Source of the DNA: an uncultured Lachnospiraceae bacterium | Lineage (GTDB): Bacteria; Bacillota; Clostridia; Lachnospirales; Lachnospiraceae | DNA length: 64,000 nucleotides | Direction: 5' to 3' | NCBI GenBank assembly: GCA_947571775.1 | Contig: CANOZK010000009.1 | Coordinates: 1 to 64,000 of the forward strand | Part shown: positions 1 to 9,896 of the stretch, piece after piece | Numbering within the stretch: the first letter of the stretch is position 1 | Layout of the letters: every line of letters begins with the position of its first letter | Notes under the pieces: generated by a model | Databases searched by the model: none | Told to the model about the DNA's origin: nothing | The model's input: the letters and a program-made list of their open reading frames with translations, nothing else | Position numbers and translations under genes: made by a program

Positions 1-24
1 ATAAGAGAGGTGGTGGGCGGAAAT

Positions 25-178
25 ATGAACAGAAAACTGAAAGGGGCCGTTGATGCTGCTATGACGGTGGCGCTGCTGTTCTGGAGTATTGCTGCCCGGC
101 AATACGGCAAAAATGGCGGGATGGATTCAGCAGAAGGTCGGCGGTGACTTGTTTTCGATTGCTGTGTCAGAACCTTAA
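25..178 (+). pseudogene. Gene debris: DUF4405-like N-terminus running into a flavodoxin-like fragment
   Basis: From ATG 25 the reading MNRKLKGAVDAAMTVALLF looks like the first membrane helix of DUF4405 proteins. It stops at TGA 145-147 after 40 residues. In another frame, from about position 84 to TAA 176-178, the sequence reads PGNTAKMAGWIQQKVGGDLF and ends in SIAVSEP. That resembles the region after the phosphate-binding loop of flavodoxins. Neither part is a complete gene, and the join suggests a deletion between two formerly separate genes. Both family assignments rest on short motifs I recognise, so they are tentative. Confidence 0.4.
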
Positions 179-375
179 ACTAACGATATTGGCAATGAAC
201 AGCAACAAGTGTTTGCCGAACTCACATTTTCTCTTCTTTTGACCGCGGGTATATTGAAAGTATGTCTGCCCCATAAAAATACTGTGACGAAAATTTGGAA
301 AAAATGTCAAAAAAATTACGATATACAGTTGCATTATTTTAAAAATGTGTTACAATAATATTGCGAAAAAAGTTG
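179..375. other. Intergenic stretch, no gene seen
   Basis: AT-rich sequence with no convincing coding frame. It contains TTTGCCGAACTCACATT at 212-228, which resembles an 18-base repeat found at 23343 and 55211 (see findings). Confidence 0.4.
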
Positions 376-404
376 TTGACATATGGGGAAGATTATAGTA
401 TATT
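376..404 (+). promoter_or_regulatory. Promoter of the tRNA-Gly gene
   Basis: TTGACA at 376-381 and TATATT at 399-404 are separated by 17 bases. Transcription would start near 411, about 23 bases before the mature tRNA end. Confidence 0.75.
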
Positions 405-433
405 AAGTATTGTCGATAGAGAGTCGGCAATAC

Positions 434-506
434 GCGTGAATGGCTCAGTTGGTAGAGTACAACCTTGCCAAGGTTGGGGTCGCGGGTTCGAGTCCCGTTT
501 CACGCT
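434..506 (+). tRNA. tRNA-Gly (anticodon GCC)
   Basis: A 73-nt cloverleaf. The acceptor arms GCGTGAA and TTCACGC pair fully, with U as discriminator base. The anticodon stem CAACC/GGTTG closes the loop TTGCCAA, giving anticodon GCC. The T arm GCGGG TTCGAGT CCCGT is canonical. The 3' CCA is not encoded. The gene has its own promoter and terminator, so it is a single-gene unit. Confidence 0.95.
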
Positions 507-510
507 CTTA

Positions 511-556
511 AAGACCGAAAGTTCCCTATATTAAGTAGGATGCTTTCGGTCTTTTC
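511..556 (+). terminator. Rho-independent terminator after tRNA-Gly
   Basis: GACCGAAAG (513-521) pairs with CTTTCGGTC (543-551) around a 21-base loop, followed by TTTT. Confidence 0.85.
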
Positions 557-665
557 TATACCATAATCATATGTCGGAGTGCGTCAGAAGAAAGTTTCTG
601 GAATTTGTGCTCAGGCCCCCCAGTGTTTAGATGAATGATAGAGAAAAACAGGATGGGGAGGCGTA

Positions 666-2216
666 ATGATTATGAAAAATATTTTGGAATATTTGGAGCA
701 GTCTGCGCAGAGAACGCCGCAGAAGGCAGCATTTATCGACACAAAGCGGACATATACCTACGGAGAACTGGAAGCTGCGGCCCGGCGGCTGGGCAGCTTT
801 CTGGCAAAGGAATTGCCGGTTCATTCACCAGTGCCTGTTTTTATGGATAAATCCGTAGAAGCGATCGTGGCTTTTCTGGGAAGTGTTTATGCGGGCTGTT
901 TCTATGTGATGGTCGATTCTGGTCATCCCATTGGAAGGGTAAAACGGATTTTGGATACTCTGGAGCCGAAGGTTCTGCTCACGGATAAAAAGCATGAGAA
1001 GCAGGCGAGGGAGCTTGGCTTTTCCGGCAAAATCCTGATACTGGAAGAATGTCTGGAAAGCCAGGAGGATAGCTGTCTGCTGCGGCAGATCCGCCGCCAG
1101 TCGAAGGATACCGACCCTCTGTACGGAATGTTTACTTCCGGTTCCACCGGGACGCCAAAAGGGGTGGTGACCGCTCACCGGGGCGTGATCGATTTTATCG
1201 ACTCCTTTACGGGGCTGTTTGAGATCACCGGGGAAGATATCCTGGGAAACCAGGCTCCGTTTGATTTCGATGTGTCGGTAAAAGATATTTATTCCACGTT
1301 AAAAACAGGGGCGACCATGGTGCTGATTCCCAAGCAGTTCTTCTCTTTTCCGACAAAGCTGCTGGATTACATCAGTTGGCATCGGGTGACTACGCTGATC
1401 TGGGCGGTGTCTGCTCTTTGTATGGTCAGCGCGTTAAAAGGGCTGGAATACAAGACGCCCTCTGCGGTCAATAAGATTTTGTTCAGCGGGGAAGCTATGC
1501 CGGTAAAACAGTTAAACATCTGGAAAAAACATTTGCCGGATGCGATGTATGTCAATCTGTACGGCCCTACGGAAGTTACCTGCAACTGCTGTTATTATAA
1601 AATCGACCGGGAGTTTGCGCCGGGGGAAGTTATCCCGATGGGAAATACTTTTCCCGATGAACAGGTGTTTCTGCTGGACGAAGAAGGCCGTCTGGTAACG
1701 CCGGATCACGAAGGGGTAAAAGGGGAAATCTGCGTAAGCGGCACCGGCCTAGCGCTGGGTTATTACAACGCCCCCGAACAGACGGCGGAGCGTTTTGTGC
1801 AGAATCCGCTGCAAAGCGAAGCGCCACAGAGGGTTTATCTGACCGGAGATCTGGGGTATTACAACGACCGCGGGGAACTGTGCTATGCGGCCCGCAGGGA
1901 CAACCAGATCAAGCATATGGGGCACCGGATTGAATTGGGCGAGATTGAAGTATCCATGGAAGAGCTGGAGCCTGTGGAGCGCGCTTGCTGTATTTTCGAC
2001 GCAGAAAGAGGCCGAATCATTGGCTTTTACCAGGGAAATATACACGAAAGGCAAATACGCCAGGAGTTAGGCAAACGTCTGCCGACTTATATGCTGCCGC
2101 ACAAATGGATGGCCGTGACGCGTATGCCAGTGACGGCAAACGGCAAGGTTGACCGCAGGGAGCTGGAAAATTATTATTTGGAGGAATGTCATGTATCAAA
2201 TCGACAAGCAGGCTAA
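666..2216 (+). CDS. DltA-like amino acid adenylation enzyme
   Basis: Predicted to activate an amino acid as aminoacyl-AMP and load it on the carrier protein encoded two genes downstream. At 516 residues it has the length of stand-alone DltA, with no fused condensation or carrier domain. Visible motifs: P-loop FTSGSTGTPKG near residue 155, the DltA-type NQAPFDFDVSV, LYGPTEVT near 300, YLTGDLG, and the C-terminal PVTANGKVDR with its catalytic lysine near 490. In Dlt systems the substrate is D-alanine. Here the adjacent decarboxylase makes another substrate likely, and I cannot read the specificity reliably. GGGGAGG at 655-661 serves ATG 666 or, with better spacing, ATG 672. The 3' end overlaps the next gene by 26 bases. 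Confidence 0.85.
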   Translation: MIMKNILEYLEQSAQRTPQKAAFIDTKRTYTYGELEAAARRLGSFLAKELPVHSPVPVFMDKSVEAIVAFLGSVYAGCFYVMVDSGHPIGRVKRILDTLEPKVLLTDKKHEKQARELGFSGKILILEECLESQEDSCLLRQIRRQSKDTDPLYGMFTSGSTGTPKGVVTAHRGVIDFIDSFTGLFEITGEDILGNQAPFDFDVSVKDIYSTLKTGATMVLIPKQFFSFPTKLLDYISWHRVTTLIWAVSALCMVSALKGLEYKTPSAVNKILFSGEAMPVKQLNIWKKHLPDAMYVNLYGPTEVTCNCCYYKIDREFAPGEVIPMGNTFPDEQVFLLDEEGRLVTPDHEGVKGEICVSGTGLALGYYNAPEQTAERFVQNPLQSEAPQRVYLTGDLGYYNDRGELCYAARRDNQIKHMGHRIELGEIEVSMEELEPVERACCIFDAERGRIIGFYQGNIHERQIRQELGKRLPTYMLPHKWMAVTRMPVTANGKVDRRELENYYLEECHVSNRQAG

Positions 2217-3417
2217 AGGCGGGTTATACGATGAGAACATCACGCCGTCTTATGTCTTTGATCTGGATCGGCTGCGGGAACGCGTAGAGGCGGTCCGTGC
2301 CGGGATAAAAAGAGACGGGACAAAGATTTGTTTTAACGTAAAAGCAAATCCGTTTCTCGTGGAAGTATTAAAAGATCAGGCAGATTACTTTGAAGTCTGT
2401 TCGCCAGGGGAGTTCCATGTCTGTGAAAAGGGAGAGATCCCGATGGAGCAGGTCGTGGTGTCCGGTGTTTACAAGGCTCCGCTGGACGTAGCGCGATTTA
2501 TCGGAGAGCACGAGGGCAAGAGTGTGTTTACGGCGGAGTCTTTCGGACAGTTGCAGGTATTGAATCTCTGTGCCAAGATGCAGGGCAGGCAGATACGGGT
2601 ATTGCTGCGGCTTACCAGCGGGAACCAGTTTGGAATGGAGTTCGAGGAGCTCAAAGAATGCATTTCCCGGCAAAAAGAGTACGAGAACATAAAGATTCTG
2701 GGCATTCAATACTATTCCGGCACACAGAAAAAAGATCTGTCGAAGATAAAAGAGGAATTGCAGATGCTCGATGATTTCTGTGAGGAGTTAAAAAGGGAGT
2801 ACGGCTTCTCGACAGAGGTTTTGGAATACGGGCCGGGTTTAAGCGTTCCTTATTTTGAAAAAGATGAAGAAGAAGATCTAGATCGGACTTTAGCGGATCT
2901 GAATGATTTATTGGACGGGCTTGGTTTCTCTGGAACCGTGGTTTTGGAGATGGGGCGTTTCCTGACGGCTTACTGCGGTTCCTATTATACGTCCATTGTG
3001 GAGATCAAACGCCATGGGGATCAGAACTATTGTATTGTGGACGGAGGAATCCATCATCTGAATTATTACGGACAGGCGATGGGCATGCGGATTCCGCATT
3101 ATACGCATTTGCCCCAGGAACCGGATTTTGAGGCCCCGGAGCAGATATGGGACGTCTGCGGGTGCCTGTGTACGACTTCGGATGTGCTGATGCGCCAGAT
3201 TCCCATGCAGAATCCCAGACCGGGGGATCTGCTGATCTTTGAGCGGGCGGGCGCGTATTCGGTCACAGAAGGAATCAGCCTGTTCCTCAGCCACGATTTG
3301 CCAAAGGTTTATTTCTATTCGGAGGAAATGGGAATGGAGCTGGTACGGGAACGGGAAGGGACGTGTCAATGGAATATGAGAACAGGGGAGGATGAAACGG
3401 ATGGAGCAGATGATTGA
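2191..3417 (+). CDS. PLP-dependent decarboxylase (Orn/DAP/Arg group 2, fold type III)
   Basis: A 408-residue protein of the family that holds LysA and ornithine decarboxylases. FNVKANP carries the predicted PLP lysine (residue 51). EMGRFLTAYCG is the phosphate-binding EPGR-like block. CGCLCTTSDVL and ERAGAYSVTEG form the C-terminal active-site blocks. ATG 2191 is chosen because GGAGG ends 6 bases before it. The gene lies between a DltA-like enzyme and a carrier protein, overlapping both. By analogy with BtrK (butirosin) and VinO (vicenistatin), which decarboxylate aminoacyl groups while bound to a carrier protein, it may convert the loaded residue on the ACP. That role is inference. A free amino acid decarboxylase is the alternative. 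Confidence 0.8.
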   Translation: MYQIDKQAKGGLYDENITPSYVFDLDRLRERVEAVRAGIKRDGTKICFNVKANPFLVEVLKDQADYFEVCSPGEFHVCEKGEIPMEQVVVSGVYKAPLDVARFIGEHEGKSVFTAESFGQLQVLNLCAKMQGRQIRVLLRLTSGNQFGMEFEELKECISRQKEYENIKILGIQYYSGTQKKDLSKIKEELQMLDDFCEELKREYGFSTEVLEYGPGLSVPYFEKDEEEDLDRTLADLNDLLDGLGFSGTVVLEMGRFLTAYCGSYYTSIVEIKRHGDQNYCIVDGGIHHLNYYGQAMGMRIPHYTHLPQEPDFEAPEQIWDVCGCLCTTSDVLMRQIPMQNPRPGDLLIFERAGAYSVTEGISLFLSHDLPKVYFYSEEMGMELVREREGTCQWNMRTGEDETDGADD

Positions 3418-3628
3418 AATTTTGGAGGATATTCAACCAGGGGTGGATTATGCCAATTGCACGACGTTGATTGACGATGGGATTTTGGAATCCTTTGCAA
3501 TTTTGTCCATTGTAGGGGAATTGGAAGATGTTTTTGGAGTCAGCCTGACTCCTGCGGAAATTATACCGGAAAACTTTAATTCTGCTCAGGCTCTGTGGGA
3601 GATGGTGCAGCGTCTGCAGAAAGCATAA
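3401..3628 (+). CDS. DltC-like acyl/aminoacyl carrier protein
   Basis: A 75-residue acidic carrier protein. The phosphopantetheine attachment site is Ser31 in DDGILESFAI, equivalent to the DS motif of DltC. ATG 3401 is preferred over the in-frame ATG 3392 because GGGGAGG (3385-3391) abuts 3392 but lies 9 bases from 3401. The gene overlaps the decarboxylase end by 17 bases, which fits tight co-expression. It would receive the aminoacyl group from the DltA-like enzyme and present it to the decarboxylase and then to the MBOAT protein at the membrane. Confidence 0.85.
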   Translation: MEQMIEILEDIQPGVDYANCTTLIDDGILESFAILSIVGELEDVFGVSLTPAEIIPENFNSAQALWEMVQRLQKA

Positions 3629-3645
3629 GGGGTAAAGAGAGCGTT

Positions 3646-5136
3646 ATGTCGTTGGTTTCTATGGCGTTTGTGCTGCTTTTGGCGGCAGCAACGGCCGGGT
3701 ATTATCTGATTGCCGGGAAATATCAGTGGATATGGCTGTTGGGGTTCAGCTATCTCTATTATCTTTCCTGCGGGTGGAAAGCGGCGCTTTTTTTGGTCTT
3801 TACCACTCTGACGACTTATGCGGCGGGCAGATTTTTGGAAAAGTATGAGCGAAAGTCTATTCTAGTTATCGGGCTTCTTCTGAATTTCGGTATGCTTGCC
3901 CTGTTAAAATATAGCAATTTTGCTATCAGTAACCTGAACAGCCTGACGGGCAGCCACATTTCGTTTCGGAATTTTGTGCTGCCTCTTGGCATCTCTTTTT
4001 ACACCTTCCAGTCTATGGGGTATCTGCTGGATGTTTATTGGAAGAAAGTGAAACCGGAGACGAATGTCTTCCGGTTTGCTTTATTTGTCTCCTTTTTCCC
4101 ACAGCTTCTCCAGGGGCCGATTGGGCGATACCATAAGCTGGCCGGGCAGTTGTATGAGCGCCATGCTTTTTCTCTGGAACGGCTGCAGCTTGGCGTGCAG
4201 CGGATTTTATGGGGGTATTTTAAGAAGCTGGTGCTGGCGGATCGGGCGGCGCCGGTGGTCAATCTGGTTTTTCAGGATTATTCGAGTCATTCCGGGGTGA
4301 CCGTGATTTTTGCCCTGCTTTGCTATTCTATCCAGTTGTATTGTGATTTCTCTGGGGGTATGGATGTGGTGATCGGAGCGGCCCAGCTTTTCGGCGTCTC
4401 TCTGGACGAGAACTTTAAGCGGCCGTATTTTGCGGTGTCTATCTCGGATTTCTGGCGTCGCTGGCACATTACTTTAGGTACCTGGATGAAAGATTACGTC
4501 TTTTATCCGTTTAACCTCTCACGCGCCATGAAACGTTTTGGGAAATGGACGAAAAAGGTGTTCGGCAGGCAGTACGGACGGCTCCTGCCCATCTGCGCGG
4601 GCAATCTGCTGGTGTTCTGGCTGGTGGGCGTCTGGCATGGGCCGGACTGGAAGTTTATTTTTTATGGACTGTACCATGGAATCCTCATCGTTTTCAGCAG
4701 TCTGATGGCTATGCATTTTCAGAATTGGAAAAAAAGGCTGCACATTCGGGACGAGTCGCCGCTCTGGAAAGGCTTTCAGATGGCGCGCACGTTTGTATTG
4801 GTCAATATCAGTTGGTATTTTGATATGGCGGTTTCCCTGGGGGCGGCTTTTGCCATGATGAAAAGCACGGTCGTCGGGTTTCGCCTGTCGGCGGTGACGG
4901 ACGGAAGCCTTCTGCAGTTGGGGCTTGGCATAGAGGATTTCCTGATCCTGGCGGCGGGCTGCCTGACGGTTTTGGCGGTCAGCGTTCTGCAGGAACGGGG
5001 CGTGTCCATCTGCAGCCGTCTGTCGGACGCTCCGCTTGCTGTTCGCTGGGGGATTTATCTGGCTCTGATTTTGTCGATGGCGGCTCTGGGACAGATCGAA
5101 GGCACAGAAGGAGGATTTATCTATGCGCAGTTTTAG
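3646..5136 (+). CDS. MBOAT family O-acyltransferase (DltB/AlgI-like)
   Basis: A 496-residue polytopic membrane protein. It carries the MBOAT core: SFYTFQSMGYLLDVYW, FFPQLLQGPIGRY, DFWRRWHITLGTWMKDYV, and the catalytic-histidine motif VGVWHG near residue 330. In Dlt systems DltB passes the D-alanyl group from DltC across the membrane to teichoic acid. In AlgI systems acetyl is moved to polysaccharide. The upstream carrier protein supports the DltB-type role here, with an aminoacyl or decarboxylated aminoacyl donor. ATG 3646 follows the carrier gene by 17 bases. A longer reading from 3595 would overlap that gene and lacks a ribosome site. Confidence 0.85.
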   Translation: MSLVSMAFVLLLAAATAGYYLIAGKYQWIWLLGFSYLYYLSCGWKAALFLVFTTLTTYAAGRFLEKYERKSILVIGLLLNFGMLALLKYSNFAISNLNSLTGSHISFRNFVLPLGISFYTFQSMGYLLDVYWKKVKPETNVFRFALFVSFFPQLLQGPIGRYHKLAGQLYERHAFSLERLQLGVQRILWGYFKKLVLADRAAPVVNLVFQDYSSHSGVTVIFALLCYSIQLYCDFSGGMDVVIGAAQLFGVSLDENFKRPYFAVSISDFWRRWHITLGTWMKDYVFYPFNLSRAMKRFGKWTKKVFGRQYGRLLPICAGNLLVFWLVGVWHGPDWKFIFYGLYHGILIVFSSLMAMHFQNWKKRLHIRDESPLWKGFQMARTFVLVNISWYFDMAVSLGAAFAMMKSTVVGFRLSAVTDGSLLQLGLGIEDFLILAAGCLTVLAVSVLQERGVSICSRLSDAPLAVRWGIYLALILSMAALGQIEGTEGGFIYAQF

Positions 5137-6091
5137 AGACGGCTCTGGGCGGCTTTTGCGGGCGGCCGGATTCCTGGCGATTCTCCTTTTGCTCAATGTA
5201 ATTTTGTCCTGGCTTTTACGGGCTTACAGCATTGTGGATGTGGATTTTCATAAGATAGCGCAGGGAGATGTGCAGGATCTGATCGTGGGCAGTTCCCATG
5301 GGCTGTCCGGCCTTGACCCGGACGTGCTGGAGGAATATACTGGAGGCAAGACGCAAAACGCTTGCCTGGGCGGGGAGTTTCCCATAGACAGTTTCTACAT
5401 TATCCAGGAGGCCGAGCGGCATCAAAAGCTGAGACGGGTGATTTACGAGCTGGACCCAGGGTATTGGGTGGCGGGGAACCATTATAATGCTGTTTATCAG
5501 AGTTTTCCCCGTTCCGCTTTGAAAGTTCGATACTATCTGGACCGGGTGTTGATGTCGGATTTTCGTATGACATTGCTGCCCTGGTATCAATATGCCCACG
5601 ATTACCGGAACATTCCGCGGATCGTACAGGCGAAGCAGAGCGCATCTTACCGCAGACGGGATGCGGAAATATTGAGAGATACAACCTATTTCTGCAAAGA
5701 CAACGGCTTTATGTATATCAACCGCATCGAGGGCGCGGCAAAAGATTCTTCGATTCCGGTTCTGTGGGAGCAGGACAATATCAAAGAGGACAGCCTTCGT
5801 TATTTCCAGAAGATGCGAAAGTATTGCCAGGAAAACGGGATTGAGCTGGTGGTGGTGACGCTGCCCATACCGACGGAAACGCTAAAGCAGTATGAGGAGC
5901 ATTTCAGAGGAGCTTATGAGTATTTTAAAGAATTGCTCCAGGACAGCGGCGTCGTCTATTATAATCTTAACTATGGTGCGGAGAAAATGCGGCTTTCGGC
6001 GCAGGATTTTAACGACTATGACGGGCATATGTATGGGGACACGGCGGCGCGTGTCAGCAAAAAACTGGGAGAGCTGGTGGCAAAAGAGTGA
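5123..6091 (+). CDS. DltD-like SGNH-type membrane-anchored protein
   Basis: A 322-residue protein with one N-terminal transmembrane helix (about residues 13-34) and an extracytoplasmic SGNH-hydrolase-like domain. VGSSHGLSG near residue 56 holds the predicted nucleophile serine. DYDGHMYGD near residue 300 holds the Asp/His pair. This is the layout of DltD and of AlgJ/AlgX-like partners of MBOAT proteins, which act on the outer face in the transfer to polymer. GGAGG at 5110-5114 precedes ATG 5123. The gene overlaps MBOAT by 14 bases. Confidence 0.75.
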   Translation: MRSFRDGSGRLLRAAGFLAILLLLNVILSWLLRAYSIVDVDFHKIAQGDVQDLIVGSSHGLSGLDPDVLEEYTGGKTQNACLGGEFPIDSFYIIQEAERHQKLRRVIYELDPGYWVAGNHYNAVYQSFPRSALKVRYYLDRVLMSDFRMTLLPWYQYAHDYRNIPRIVQAKQSASYRRRDAEILRDTTYFCKDNGFMYINRIEGAAKDSSIPVLWEQDNIKEDSLRYFQKMRKYCQENGIELVVVTLPIPTETLKQYEEHFRGAYEYFKELLQDSGVVYYNLNYGAEKMRLSAQDFNDYDGHMYGDTAARVSKKLGELVAKE

Positions 6092-6954
6092 AATATAAAG
6101 GAATTGTCTGTATTATCGTATCGGCGTTTTGTTTTGCACTGATGAATCTGTTTGTGCGCCTTTCTGGGGATCTGCCCTCGGTTCAGAAAAGCTTTTTCCG
6201 AAATCTGGTGGCGTTTTTCTTTGCCCTAGCGGTTATGAAGAAGAACCACATCGGTTTTTCGGGAAAAAAATCAAATCTGCTGCCGCTGATTCTCCGATCG
6301 GCGTTCGGAACGGCCGGTATTCTGGGAAATTTTTATGCGGTGGATCATCTGGTGCTGGCCGATGCCTCTATGCTGAATAAGATGTCGCCTTTTTTTGCCA
6401 TTGTATTTAGCGCGTTTATCTTAAAGGAAAGGGTGCGCCCGTTCCAGGCGTTTGCCGTCGGCGGAGCTTTTCTGGGAAGCCTGCTGATCATCAAGCCCAC
6501 CGTGGCGGGAATGGAGATGTTTCCGGCGATCCTGGGCTTTCTGGGCGGAATGGGGGCCGGCGCGGCTTATACGATGGTGCGGTACTTATCGGAGAGAGGG
6601 GAGAAAGGCCCGTTGATTGTCTGCTTTTTCTCCGGTTTTTCCTGTCTGGCGACGCTGCCTTTTCTGATTTTCGGTTATCATCCAATGAGCGGGCAGCAGC
6701 TTGCGATCCTGTTGTTGGCGGGCTTGAGCGCGGCGGGCGGGCAGTTTGCGATTACGGCGGCGTACAGCTACGCGCCGGCCAGGGAAATCTCTGTTTATGA
6801 TTATTCTCAGATTATTTTTTCGGCGGGTTTCGGGTATCTGGTATTCGGCCAGATCCCGGATCTCTTAAGCTGGCTGGGTTATCTGGTGATTTGTTCCATG
6901 GCGGTGGCGATGTTTTTTTACAACAAACCTTTATGCGCCCGGCATCGGATGTAA
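6088..6954 (+). CDS. EamA/DMT superfamily transporter
   Basis: A 288-residue protein with about ten predicted membrane helices in two EamA repeats. The sequence FCFALMNLFVRLSGDLPSVQ and the following FFRN are typical of the first repeat. It starts at GTG 6088, which overlaps the stop of the DltD-like gene (GTGA), so it is translationally coupled to the surface-modification operon. Members export amino acids, nucleobases or other small metabolites, and the substrate here cannot be read. A role in providing or disposing of a metabolite for the acylation system is possible but only inferred from position. Confidence 0.75.
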   Translation: MKYKGIVCIIVSAFCFALMNLFVRLSGDLPSVQKSFFRNLVAFFFALAVMKKNHIGFSGKKSNLLPLILRSAFGTAGILGNFYAVDHLVLADASMLNKMSPFFAIVFSAFILKERVRPFQAFAVGGAFLGSLLIIKPTVAGMEMFPAILGFLGGMGAGAAYTMVRYLSERGEKGPLIVCFFSGFSCLATLPFLIFGYHPMSGQQLAILLLAGLSAAGGQFAITAAYSYAPAREISVYDYSQIIFSAGFGYLVFGQIPDLLSWLGYLVICSMAVAMFFYNKPLCARHRM

Positions 6955-6998
6955 CGATTTGAACTTTTATAGCGACTTTGGAAAGAAAGGTGAGAGAA

Positions 6999-7925
6999 AT
7001 GCAGATCAAGACGACACAAATCATATCCCGGGAGGATGGGCTGCCTCTCTCTGTAATGGAGACGATCCCCGAGCGAGAACCTTGGTGCCTGGTGCAGCTT
7101 GTCCACGGGATGAGCGAGTACAAGGAGCGCTATCTGCCCTTTATGGAATATCTGGCAGACAGAGGGATTTCTTGTATCATACACGACCACCGGGGGCATG
7201 GACAGAGCGTGCGCCAGGAGGGGGAGCTGGGCTATACTTATGGTGCCGGGGGAGCTTCCCTGGTGCAGGATACCCGCCTGGTGACTGCTTATCTGCGCAA
7301 GAAGCGGGGAAAAGAGCTTCCCCTGGTGCTGATTGGGCACAGCATGGGCAGCCTGGTGACGCGCGCTTATCTGAAAAAATATGACCACCTGGTCAATGCG
7401 GTGATTCTGTGCGGATCGCCCAGCAAAAACTCTTTTTTGAAATTGGGAAAACACCTTGTCAAAGCGGAGGAGAAGATCCGCGGAGAGCGTCATCCCAGCC
7501 GCCTGATGCAGACTTTGAGTTTCGGCCCATACGCTGCCAGATTTCCCAGAGAAAAAAGCGCCTATGCCTGGGTCTGTTCTGATCCGGCTGTCGTCAGCGA
7601 GTATGAGACGTCCAGCCTGTGCGGGTTTCCCTTCACCGCAGACGGCTACCGTTCCCTGCTGGAGCTGATGGAGGCGACCTATTCCGATAAAGGATGGAAT
7701 TGCAGCAATCCAGACCTGCCGATCCTGTTTATCAGCGGAGGAGACGACCCCTGTATGGGAAACGTGCGCAAATTCAAACAGGCGCTGGATCATATGCGGA
7801 TGCAGGGATACCGCGATGTCCGCGGCAAAATTTATCCGGGCCTGCGGCATGAATTATTAAATGAGTATGAAAAAAGAAAAATTTATAGAAACTGCTATTG
7901 TTTTATTCGGCAAAAGTTAGTATAA
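6999..7925 (+). CDS. Alpha/beta hydrolase, lysophospholipase/monoglyceride lipase type
   Basis: A 308-residue serine hydrolase of the Hydrolase_4 group. LIGHSMGS carries the nucleophile serine, HDHRGHGQS is the family block before it, ISGGDDPCMG supplies the likely Asp, and PGLRHELLNE the His. No signal peptide is seen, so it is probably cytoplasmic. ATG 6999 is chosen over TTG 6978 because AAAGGTGA ends about 6 bases upstream of it. It follows the EamA gene by 44 bases and may be the last gene of that operon. Lipid or ester substrates are typical of the family. Confidence 0.75.
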   Translation: MQIKTTQIISREDGLPLSVMETIPEREPWCLVQLVHGMSEYKERYLPFMEYLADRGISCIIHDHRGHGQSVRQEGELGYTYGAGGASLVQDTRLVTAYLRKKRGKELPLVLIGHSMGSLVTRAYLKKYDHLVNAVILCGSPSKNSFLKLGKHLVKAEEKIRGERHPSRLMQTLSFGPYAARFPREKSAYAWVCSDPAVVSEYETSSLCGFPFTADGYRSLLELMEATYSDKGWNCSNPDLPILFISGGDDPCMGNVRKFKQALDHMRMQGYRDVRGKIYPGLRHELLNEYEKRKIYRNCYCFIRQKLV

Positions 7926-7973: not shown

Positions 7974-9896
7974 ATGTTGAATAAACGGGCAGCGACATTA
8001 TTGGCATTCGTATTGGCAGGTTCTATGGCATTGTCAACGCCTGCAACGGCGATGGCTGCTTCCGGCGGAAGCGAAAAAGCCAGTCAGACAGAAGATGAAG
8101 AGAGCGACATGGACGACGAAACAGAAGAGGACGAAGAAGAGGAAAAGACTAGTCAGGCAAAAGAGGACGAAGATTCCGATTCCGTAAAAGGAAAAAAAGC
8201 GGATACTAAGGAAGATTCCGGGGAAAATGGAAAAAAGACCAAAAGCAGCAAGGTATCTTCCAATACTTCTAAGTCAGCCGGTTCTTCATCAAATAAAACA
8301 TCCGCAAAAACATTGCAGGATCAGCCGCGCGCCGAGGCAGGGGAGGGCACAACTACTCCAACTCCTTCTGGTGATGAGGTTTCCGGCAATACTCCAGGGG
8401 CAGATGTCTCAGGCAATGAGACTCCGACTCCAGGGGGAAATACCTCAGGCAATGAGACTCCAACCCCAGGGGGAAACGTCTCAGGCAATGTGATTTCTGC
8501 GGGCGATTTTAAATTAAGCGGAGATCTTTCTGAAGGGGATTATTCTTATGAGGAAACCTCGAAAGGGCAGCAGATATTAACCATAAAAACGGATAGGGCA
8601 GCAACGATTTCTGGAGTTGTTACCTTTGGAAAAATCGTGGTGAACAGTCCAAAAGGGGCAGACTTAACGCTGAACAATATGCAGCTGGGAGCAAATCGTG
8701 GTGATAACATTATAGAAGTGTTGAGTGGAACCGGAAAGGTTCAGATTCATCTGTCTGGGGAGAATACTTTCAACACCTTCAAAAATGCTACCAGTGAGGC
8801 GGTAACGATAGACGGATCTGGAATTTTGAAAGCAAACAAGATTTATAATATGGTAATCATAGGCGGAGGTAATATCCAGACAGAGTCTTCCTGGGACAAT
8901 GTGCCTCAAAATGCTGCCGGCAAAGATTTGTATGCTGTGTCTGTGAAAAATTTGAATCCAAATGCAGAATATAATATTGAAAGTTTAACGGCAGGAACGC
9001 CTTCGGCAAAATACAATTATGGAGATCGGATACGTTCAGACAGCACTGGAACAATCGTGATGTATCTTCCTACCGGAGAGGCATCGCTGACTTTAAACGA
9101 TGCTGTATATCAGGGAACCGTAACTTCTGATGGAAATGGAGAACTGAAAAAACAGACCATAACCGGAACGCCAATTCCGTCTGGCTCAATCACACCATCA
9201 CCTTCTCCTACTACGCCAGTTTCGGATATGCAGGCAGATCCAGCGAATAACGGTCTGTATTGGATCAATTCCGGGTCAACTTACCGTTCCGGGGCAACCC
9301 TGCAATTTTACGCTACTGGGGATGGCTATGGGCCGGAGGATCCGCAGGATATAGATCCGGAGCGCGGCGCTACCAGATATAAACCGGTTAGTTGGACGGT
9401 AGGTCCCGACACAAGCGGAAGCGGAACTTCCGATAAGGGTTCCTGGAAAAAACGTTCAGAAGTAACCACAGGTCAGACGGTTTCTGGTGCCTATACATCT
9501 GGAGAATATCGTTACAAGGCTTCCTTTACACCAAGTACAAGCCAGACAACATCGGTAGCTTATACTTTGCAGGTAAGATACGACAGGGAAACATACTATG
9601 GGAAAAACAGGAAATGGGAGAAAGACGGCACGACGGCTACAAAAAGTGTAAGTTTCTACATAAGGAATACGAGCCTTACCGTTACGCCTACGTACACCCC
9701 TCGTCCGACGTATTACACAACCACCACTCCGGTACGGTCAACGATTACAACCACAGCAGCCCAAAGCAGCGTCAGCTCCAATGCCAGAAACGCATCTACC
9801 GGGGATCATACGCCGATTGGAACACTGGTATTCCTGATGATTGCCGCAGCAGGCAGCGGAATCGGTATTTTCCGTAAAAAGAGGGATTCCTTCTAA
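7974..9896 (+). CDS. Secreted, C-terminally anchored surface protein with acidic and Pro/Thr/Gly-rich regions
   Basis: A 640-residue protein. It has an N-terminal signal peptide (hydrophobic residues about 8-28, ending near AMAAS). A very acidic, low-complexity stretch (about 32-110) follows, then tandem GNETPTPGGN/VSGN repeats (about 130-175). A beta-rich middle comes next, then a Ser/Thr-rich linker and a C-terminal helix followed by RKKRDSF. The tail ASTGDHTPIGTLVFLMIAA resembles sortase substrates but lacks a clear LPxTG: only TGD remains. It may be a variant sortase substrate or simply be membrane-tethered. I recognise no enzymatic domain. It has its own promoter and terminator. Confidence 0.7.
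   Translation: MLNKRAATLLAFVLAGSMALSTPATAMAASGGSEKASQTEDEESDMDDETEEDEEEEKTSQAKEDEDSDSVKGKKADTKEDSGENGKKTKSSKVSSNTSKSAGSSSNKTSAKTLQDQPRAEAGEGTTTPTPSGDEVSGNTPGADVSGNETPTPGGNTSGNETPTPGGNVSGNVISAGDFKLSGDLSEGDYSYEETSKGQQILTIKTDRAATISGVVTFGKIVVNSPKGADLTLNNMQLGANRGDNIIEVLSGTGKVQIHLSGENTFNTFKNATSEAVTIDGSGILKANKIYNMVIIGGGNIQTESSWDNVPQNAAGKDLYAVSVKNLNPNAEYNIESLTAGTPSAKYNYGDRIRSDSTGTIVMYLPTGEASLTLNDAVYQGTVTSDGNGELKKQTITGTPIPSGSITPSPSPTTPVSDMQADPANNGLYWINSGSTYRSGATLQFYATGDGYGPEDPQDIDPERGATRYKPVSWTVGPDTSGSGTSDKGSWKKRSEVTTGQTVSGAYTSGEYRYKASFTPSTSQTTSVAYTLQVRYDRETYYGKNRKWEKDGTTATKSVSFYIRNTSLTVTPTYTPRPTYYTTTTPVRSTITTTAAQSSVSSNARNASTGDHTPIGTLVFLMIAAAGSGIGIFRKKRDSF
8409..8490 (+). repeat. 36-bp tandem repeat inside the surface protein gene
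   Basis: Two near-identical 36-base units (8409-8444 and 8445-8480) and the start of a third (8481-8490). They encode SGNETPTPGGN-type repeats. Such in-frame repeats can change copy number and so linker length between strains. Confidence 0.75.

Follow-up and report, generated by a model that had tools for sequence, protein, structure and literature searches.

The window examined here is a 64,000-base stretch of DNA (bases 1-64000 of contig C9) from the genome of an uncultured Lachnospiraceae bacterium, an assembly of 2.7 Mb that is 98.98% complete. Between 666 and 6091 the window carries five intact genes, all on the plus strand and without internal stops, which encode an adenylation enzyme (A), a fold-III pyridoxal phosphate (PLP) decarboxylase (D), a carrier protein (C), an MBOAT acyltransferase (M), and an SGNH protein (S) (Table 1). 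The A and D genes overlap by 26 bases, the D and C genes by 26 bases, and the M and S genes by 14 bases, and a gap of 17 bases separates C from M. These coordinates bear out an earlier note on this DNA, which had described five genes in this order, overlapping or at most 17 bases apart. The operon probably encodes a pathway that acylates the cell surface with an acidic amino acid after its decarboxylation. This reading, drawn from sequence comparison, largely supports the model of the earlier note, in which an amino acid is loaded on the carrier, decarboxylated there, and moved to a cell-surface polymer.

Table 1. Genes, codons of interest and related features of the A-D-C-M-S locus. Positions are those of the window unless a locus is named.
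Feature	Position	Strand	Remarks
A: stand-alone amino-acid adenylation enzyme, 516 aa	666-2216	+	AMP-binding / amino-acid adenylation families
A Lys206 codon (GrsA position 239)	1281-1283	+	Predicted carboxylate-binding; putative role
D: fold-III PLP decarboxylase (BtrK/VinO/LysA superfamily), 408 aa	2191-3417	+	Orn/DAP/Arg decarboxylase N and C domains
D Lys51 codon	2341-2343	+	PLP-binding lysine by motif
D Cys327 codon	3169-3171	+	Conserved decarboxylase cysteine, kept in 80/80 loci
C: acyl/peptidyl carrier protein, DltC-like, 78 aa	3392-3628	+	Weak DltC match; conserved start probably 3401
C Ser34 codon	3491-3493	+	Predicted phosphopantetheine attachment site; S in 73/73
M: MBOAT acyltransferase, DltB-like, 496 aa	3646-5136	+	C-terminal extension ending FIYAQF
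M conserved MBOAT His codon (WHG motif)	4636-4638	+	64/64
M Tyr codon, C-terminal FxYxxF acyl-shuttle motif	5122-5124	+	Y in 64/64; motif as given in the partial text of PMC12148441
S: SGNH transferase, 322 aa	5123-6091	+	N-terminal helix, DltD-like fold
S Ser58 codon	5294-5296	+	Predicted SGNH nucleophile; 64/64
S Asp298 to His302 codons	6014-6028	+	Predicted remainder of catalytic triad
EamA-family transporter gene	6088-6954	+	4-base overlap with S; directly after D in three sister species
tRNA-Gly	434-507
Solo D in sister species	L101 12822-14051, L102 9341-10567, L103 9335-10546	-

A pattern scan with the D alignment found 512 coding relatives, and the best 80 loci, from named genomes and with many close relatives among them, were analyzed, the presence of each gene being called by score thresholds. 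All five genes occur together in 55 of these 80 loci, in the order ADCMS in 45, MSADC in 8, and ADSCM in 2, which answers the search for the same gene order that the earlier note had called for. A, D, and C are consecutive, with D in the middle, in 53 of these 55 loci. The junctions in these loci overlap or span at most 60 bases in 53/55 cases for A-D, 47/53 for D-C, 45/47 for C-M, and 53/53 for M-S. The five-gene order is not due to chance. Thirteen of the remaining 25 loci lie near a contig end (including L021, the solo D of the sister species G001), and the 12 that do not comprise 3 DCMS, 2 MSAD, 6 ADC, and 1 AD. The named hosts include Blautia, Dorea, Mediterraneibacter, Lacrimispora, Faecalicatena, Anaerocolumna, and Clostridium cadaveris. 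Among 200 genomes of the same family, Lachnospiraceae, D is present in 40, and at least 34 of the 41 D matches have A directly upstream within 300 bases. DltA exceeds its curated cut-off in 6 of the same 200 genomes, two of which (G110 and G180) also carry D. A mutual exclusion of the five-gene system and classical DltA was rejected on this ground, and the two systems can coexist.

The substrate pocket of A was read as D V K I L S L C N K at the positions that we take to be GrsA 235, 236, 239, 278, 299, 301, 322, 330, 331, and 517, placed by motif and by the ungapped A4 region. D235, V236, K239, C330, and N331 are kept in 76 of 78 A enzymes and S301 in 77 of 78 (some genomes being counted twice, e.g., L011 and L066), giving the pattern DVKxxSxCNK; the two exceptions are L097, a non-adjacent paralogue, and the enzyme of G013 (L015). 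Eight DltA enzymes of the same bacterial family, five over the DltA cut-off and three below it, instead read DLMVLCTVAK (6) or DLMVLCTVCK (2), so that the operon enzyme and DltA differ by K versus M at 239, S versus C at 301, and N versus A or C at 331. A also scores 299 bits against the DltA equivalog model, far below the cut-off of 559.85. Judged by its pocket code, A is not a D-alanine enzyme. The suggestion of the earlier note that the transferred group differs from D-alanine thus holds at the level of the pocket code, where a D-alanine-specific A is contradicted. Because position 239 is Lys in 76/78 A enzymes and Met in 8/8 DltA enzymes, Lys206 of A is predicted to bind a carboxylate, and a basic residue at this position fits a second, free carboxylate in the substrate. 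Other triads of the A-D-C type place basic residues elsewhere. The VinN-type enzyme L123, whose best PDB match is 3wvn (E 4e-115), has them at 329-330, and the XrtA-type ligase L124 has an Arg at 330; VinN itself (3wvn, seen through the VinN-like L123 enzyme) keeps the Asp, and its basic pair lies in the motif TECKR. In the operon, VinN-type, and XrtA-type triads, a free carboxylate may therefore be bound by a basic residue that differs from one triad to the next.

D keeps K51, R256, C327, D331, and Y356 in all 80 loci and has either Tyr (49 loci) or Phe (31 loci) at position 175. The nearest structures are LysA and BtrK, the latter among the top fold matches. An aromatic residue at 175 and a Cys-Thr pair are common to D, BtrK, and the carrier-linked enzymes of L122-L124, whereas the corresponding residues are His and Cys-Glu in the LysA of Aquifex and Phe and Cys-Glu in the LysA-like enzyme of this genome. 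D reaches 168.7 bits against the LysA equivalog (cut-off 297.9) and has Cys-Thr in place of Cys-Glu, which sets it apart from LysA proper; the other, LysA-like decarboxylase with Cys-Glu is encoded elsewhere in the genome (G000:C12). In blastp, D of the window scores 155 bits with L122, 144 with L123, 131 with L125, 126 with L124, 116 with BtrK (partial), and 51 with the genome's own LysA-like enzyme. D from the window and three other loci together gave 112-156 bits against BtrK and the three carrier-linked enzymes and 37-51 against the LysA-like enzyme. Between its LLR and QFGM motifs, the D family is missing about 15 residues that are present in BtrK and the other compared enzymes. In the tree it forms a clade of its own (100/100), apart from two LysA-type enzymes.

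The alignment sets for M, S, and C were chosen by score and comprise 64, 64, and 73 sequences, respectively, with the window included. The phosphopantetheine Ser of C is present in 73/73, and the MBOAT His of M, its shuttle Tyr, and the last Phe of its C-terminal motif are each present in 64/64. The strict FxYxxF form ends M in 42 of the 64 sequences, and the other 22 begin the motif with Leu or Pro. No separate DltX was found in the window at 1-7200, where M itself is the only open reading frame of at least 30 residues that ends in the motif. By comparison, five dlt operons of the family whose DltA exceeds the cut-off encode a DltB of 383-396 residues that lacks the motif and an open reading frame of 53-54 residues that ends in it (5/5); none of these five operons contains a D match, and four gave a carrier match. 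Neither Pfam nor NCBIfam gave a match for S, and a profile of S searched against PDB sequences placed DltD at E 0.49, below unrelated matches. Because the model of S (mean predicted local distance difference test score 93.7) has an SGNH fold whose best Foldseek matches are DltD, we assign S as DltD-like from the fold search. Its Ser58 is kept in 64/64, Asp298 in 61/64, and His302 in 63/64, and the Asp and His are invariant in 29 aligned sequences. M and S thus present the predicted active residues of an MBOAT-SGNH pair, namely the His and the FxYxxF Tyr on one side and a partner with Ser, Asp, and His on the other. In two loci with M, S, A, and D (L069 and L089), S is far longer, at 641 aa, and a second acyl ligase and a reductase are encoded upstream; in L069, the long S includes an ILEI-like domain, and a different small carrier-like open reading frame is present.

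Taken by its parts, the operon is a hybrid of Dlt, VinN/VinO/VinL, and PatA/PatB. As in Dlt (DltA-D and DltX, for D-alanylation of teichoic acids), an adenylation enzyme, a carrier, an MBOAT, and an SGNH protein are encoded in one operon. It differs from Dlt in its extra decarboxylase, its non-DltA pocket, and the fusion of FxYxxF to the MBOAT, and A, M, and C remain below the cut-offs of the DltA, DltB, and DltC models. According to the partial text of PMC12148441, Dlt carries FxYxxF on DltX, and MBOATs with the motif fused occur without a carrier, evidently fed by acyl-CoA. The earlier note had described a Dlt operon with an extra enzyme, and the linkage of carrier, MBOAT, and SGNH protein to an adenylation gene stands, but the shuttle is on the MBOAT and not on a DltX. 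PatA/PatB and AlgI-type pairs share the fused FxYxxF MBOAT and the SGNH partner with our operon and, as far as the same partial text goes (PMC12148441), have no carrier, whereas the operon encodes a carrier and a predicted loading enzyme. The pathway of the window is thus predicted to join a carrier-borne donor to a fused shuttle.

The VinN/VinO/VinL system of vicenistatin, with its FlvN-type relatives, encodes an adenylation enzyme, a fold-III PLP decarboxylase, and a stand-alone carrier together, and the analogy to it drawn in the earlier note holds for the parts list and their order, as far as these can be read from the genes. The system differs in serving a polyketide synthase and in having its basic pocket residues in TECKR and not at 239, and to our knowledge it includes no MBOAT or SGNH protein. 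The partial text of PMC11284099 states that VinN accepts 3-methylaspartate and not its decarboxylated form, 3-aminoisobutyrate, and that VinO decarboxylates on the loaded carrier VinL. From the butirosin pathway, BtrK is a PDB relative of D with similar PLP-facing aromatic and Cys-Thr positions, although it has the approximately 15-residue stretch that D lacks. The carrier of the BtrK/BtrI system is loaded by an ATP-grasp enzyme. The exosortase A triad (TIGR03098/TIGR03099) has the same A-D-C order in L124, but it stands in a polysaccharide cluster with no MBOAT or SGNH protein annotated within 11 kb, and its A pocket differs. A scores 197 bits against TIGR03098 (cut-off 592) and D 158 bits against TIGR03099 (cut-off 478), and the exosortase itself was not searched for.

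On the reading that we prefer, A would load aspartate or glutamate on C in an ATP-dependent reaction through the side-chain (distal) carboxylate. We infer this mode of loading because a PLP α-decarboxylase acting on a carrier-bound amino acid needs a free α carboxylate. D would then remove the α carboxylate on the carrier, as VinO and BtrK do. The resulting β-alanyl or γ-aminobutyryl group would pass from C to the tyrosine of M, from there to the serine of S, and finally to a hydroxyl of an extracellular glycan or glycerophosphate polymer, where it would give the surface a free amine, as D-alanine does. Conversion of aspartate to β-alanine is slightly favored over a γ-aminobutyrate product because D scores slightly higher against the VinN-type triad decarboxylase than against BtrK, though aspartate and glutamate are not separable with confidence. 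A second reason for this leaning is that γ-aminobutyryl esters cyclize easily.

The same surface product would arise if D decarboxylated a free amino acid and A then loaded the product, β-alanine or γ-aminobutyrate, on C for export by M and S. Free amino acids are the substrates of LysA and other fold-III decarboxylases, a LysA is the top sequence and fold match of D, and the traits that D shares with BtrK are also seen outside the carrier-linked group. L125, encoded on a plasmid and annotated as diaminopimelate decarboxylase, has no listed neighbor that is a carrier gene, yet it has Tyr and Cys-Thr and scores against D in blastp like the carrier-linked enzymes. The partial text of PMC11284099 adds a precedent from a related pathway, where IdnL3 acts on free β-glutamate, decarboxylating it before loading. 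Nevertheless, we regard this order of events as unlikely, since the pocket Lys of A (76/78) would be without an evident partner in a monocarboxylic β- or γ-amino acid, D has Cys-Thr, like BtrK and the carrier-linked enzymes, where Aquifex LysA has Cys-Glu, and nearly all full loci place D between A and C. Attempts to separate carrier-linked from free decarboxylases failed both by phylogeny (support 68/84) and by the two active-site traits, L125 having both without a carrier gene.

Two further explanations would detach the decarboxylase or the donor from the surface reaction. Some databases name relatives of D alanine racemase, and D also matches Ala_racemase_N, as would be expected if the operon carried out ordinary aminoacylation with D-alanine or another α-amino acid and D were a racemase or belonged to an unrelated step. 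This is very improbable in view of the decarboxylase C-terminal domain and conserved Cys of D, the lack of a DltA pocket in A, and the presence of DltA over the cut-off alongside D in the same two genomes (G110 and G180). It is also hard to credit that A, D, and C make an acyl donor for a small molecule or cytosolic sugar and that M and S acetylate or process something else, because M and S belong to the same tight run in 55/80 loci, with 45/47 C-M junctions overlapping or at most 60 bases long, and because the shuttle motif is found on M and the transferase fold in S. Five A-D-C loci without M and S in a polysaccharide cluster, together with the similar triad of the XrtA cluster, speak for such a separate donor. 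In a difference from the account of the earlier note, the triad is thus not confined to operons with M and S.

Several observations weigh against carrier-based decarboxylation of an acidic amino acid. The combination of K239 and D235 is also found in some enzymes that load glutamate by its α carboxylate; if A did so, D would be unable to act on the carrier. The carboxylate-binding TECKR of VinN is absent from A of the window, which reads TEVTCNC there and is not VinN-like in detail, and pocket codes predict poorly outside the families on which they were trained. The tie of D to the carrier-linked enzymes in the tree is weak (68/84). Among the 80 loci, two that contain M, S, A, and D gave no C in the vicinity, and three that contain D, C, M, and S gave no A. 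In addition, the divergent A-C-D-M locus of G013 (L105 6745-11337) has Ile at 235 and Arg at 239, and its A is perhaps for a different substrate. Finally, a solo D is kept under purifying selection without the other four genes in sister species, and a role of D that depended strictly on C would leave this unexplained.

The solo D occurs in three sister species (G001-G003), where tRNA-Gly, D, EamA, and hydrolase genes lie at the same place. A, C, M, and S were not found in the stretches read from these species (tblastn, E 1e-3), and no A match was found anywhere in the three genomes, which are 91-98% complete, at E 1e-10; no other MBOAT encoded there shares more than 41% identity with M. No D was found in a fourth sister, G004, whose genome is 61% complete. 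The solo D enzymes form one clade beside D of the window, on branches several times longer, and Lys51 is kept in G001 and replaced by Asn in G002 and by Ala in G003. Between the G002 and G003 enzymes, the nonsynonymous (dN) and synonymous (dS) divergences are 0.158 and 0.963, a dN/dS of about 0.16 that indicates purifying selection. Loss of the pathway followed by a relaxed or new use of D is likely, and the sequences hint at a retained pseudoenzyme. The loss of Lys51 in two sisters and the longer branches support the dependence of D on A, C, M, and S.

In Gram-positive bacteria, the charge of the surface polymers influences how sensitive the cell is to host peptides, bacteriocins, and metal ions; D-alanine added by Dlt is the textbook case. 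We lean, by a narrow balance, toward the broader proposal that a large share of Lachnospiraceae, represented by the 40 genomes with D, replaces or supplements D-alanine with a cationic β-alanyl or γ-aminobutyryl ester. Its acyl group would come from aspartate or glutamate decarboxylated on a carrier, and an MBOAT that has its own acyl-tyrosine shuttle would deliver it. Such a carrier-fed system would be new in both its acyl group and its wiring. Literature searches of limited coverage, judged by titles and the opening lines of abstracts, returned no report of such an operon or surface ester, which is weak evidence of absence. If the proposal is true, the surface of a major gut bacterial group carries an amine ester that these searches did not find described, and the pathway unites the logics of Dlt, macrolactam-starter synthesis, and peptidoglycan O-acetylation.

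The surroundings of the module vary among the 80 loci. In 14 of them, the genes directly upstream of A encode a two-component system of response regulator and histidine kinase (families checked in L047). A sulfatase-type, glycerophosphotransferase-like protein is encoded nearby in three (one type searched, for proteins like the neighbor in L022), and the L022 protein itself is below the equivalog cut-offs. No common acceptor emerged from this search for one type of protein. The genome of the window encodes one LtaS-like protein, far below the equivalog cut-off. In the five A-D-C loci without M and S (L070 5492-10522 and its counterparts in L073, L076, L080, and L095), the triad is flanked by genes for a hexapeptide-repeat transferase and a DegT sugar aminotransferase, and the surrounding polysaccharide cluster also holds glycosyltransferases, UDP-N-acetylglucosamine 2-epimerase, and EpsG (families checked in L070 only). 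These loci share a Thr at A 278 and a Tyr at D 323, and the same donor may acylate a sugar amine there (N-acylation). The Streptomyces plasmid locus L123 (5956-10040) has a VinN/VinO/VinL-like triad with an acyl carrier protein synthase, adjoining ectoine-type genes for a diaminobutyrate transaminase and acetyltransferase.

Downstream of the operon in the window, the EamA gene is followed by an α/β hydrolase gene. Further on, at 7974-9896, lies a gene for a 640-aa protein with a signal-like start, a low-complexity acidic, Thr- and Pro-rich region, and a C-terminal hydrophobic stretch. This protein matches no Pfam family, and similar proteins are encoded at the same place in the three sister species.

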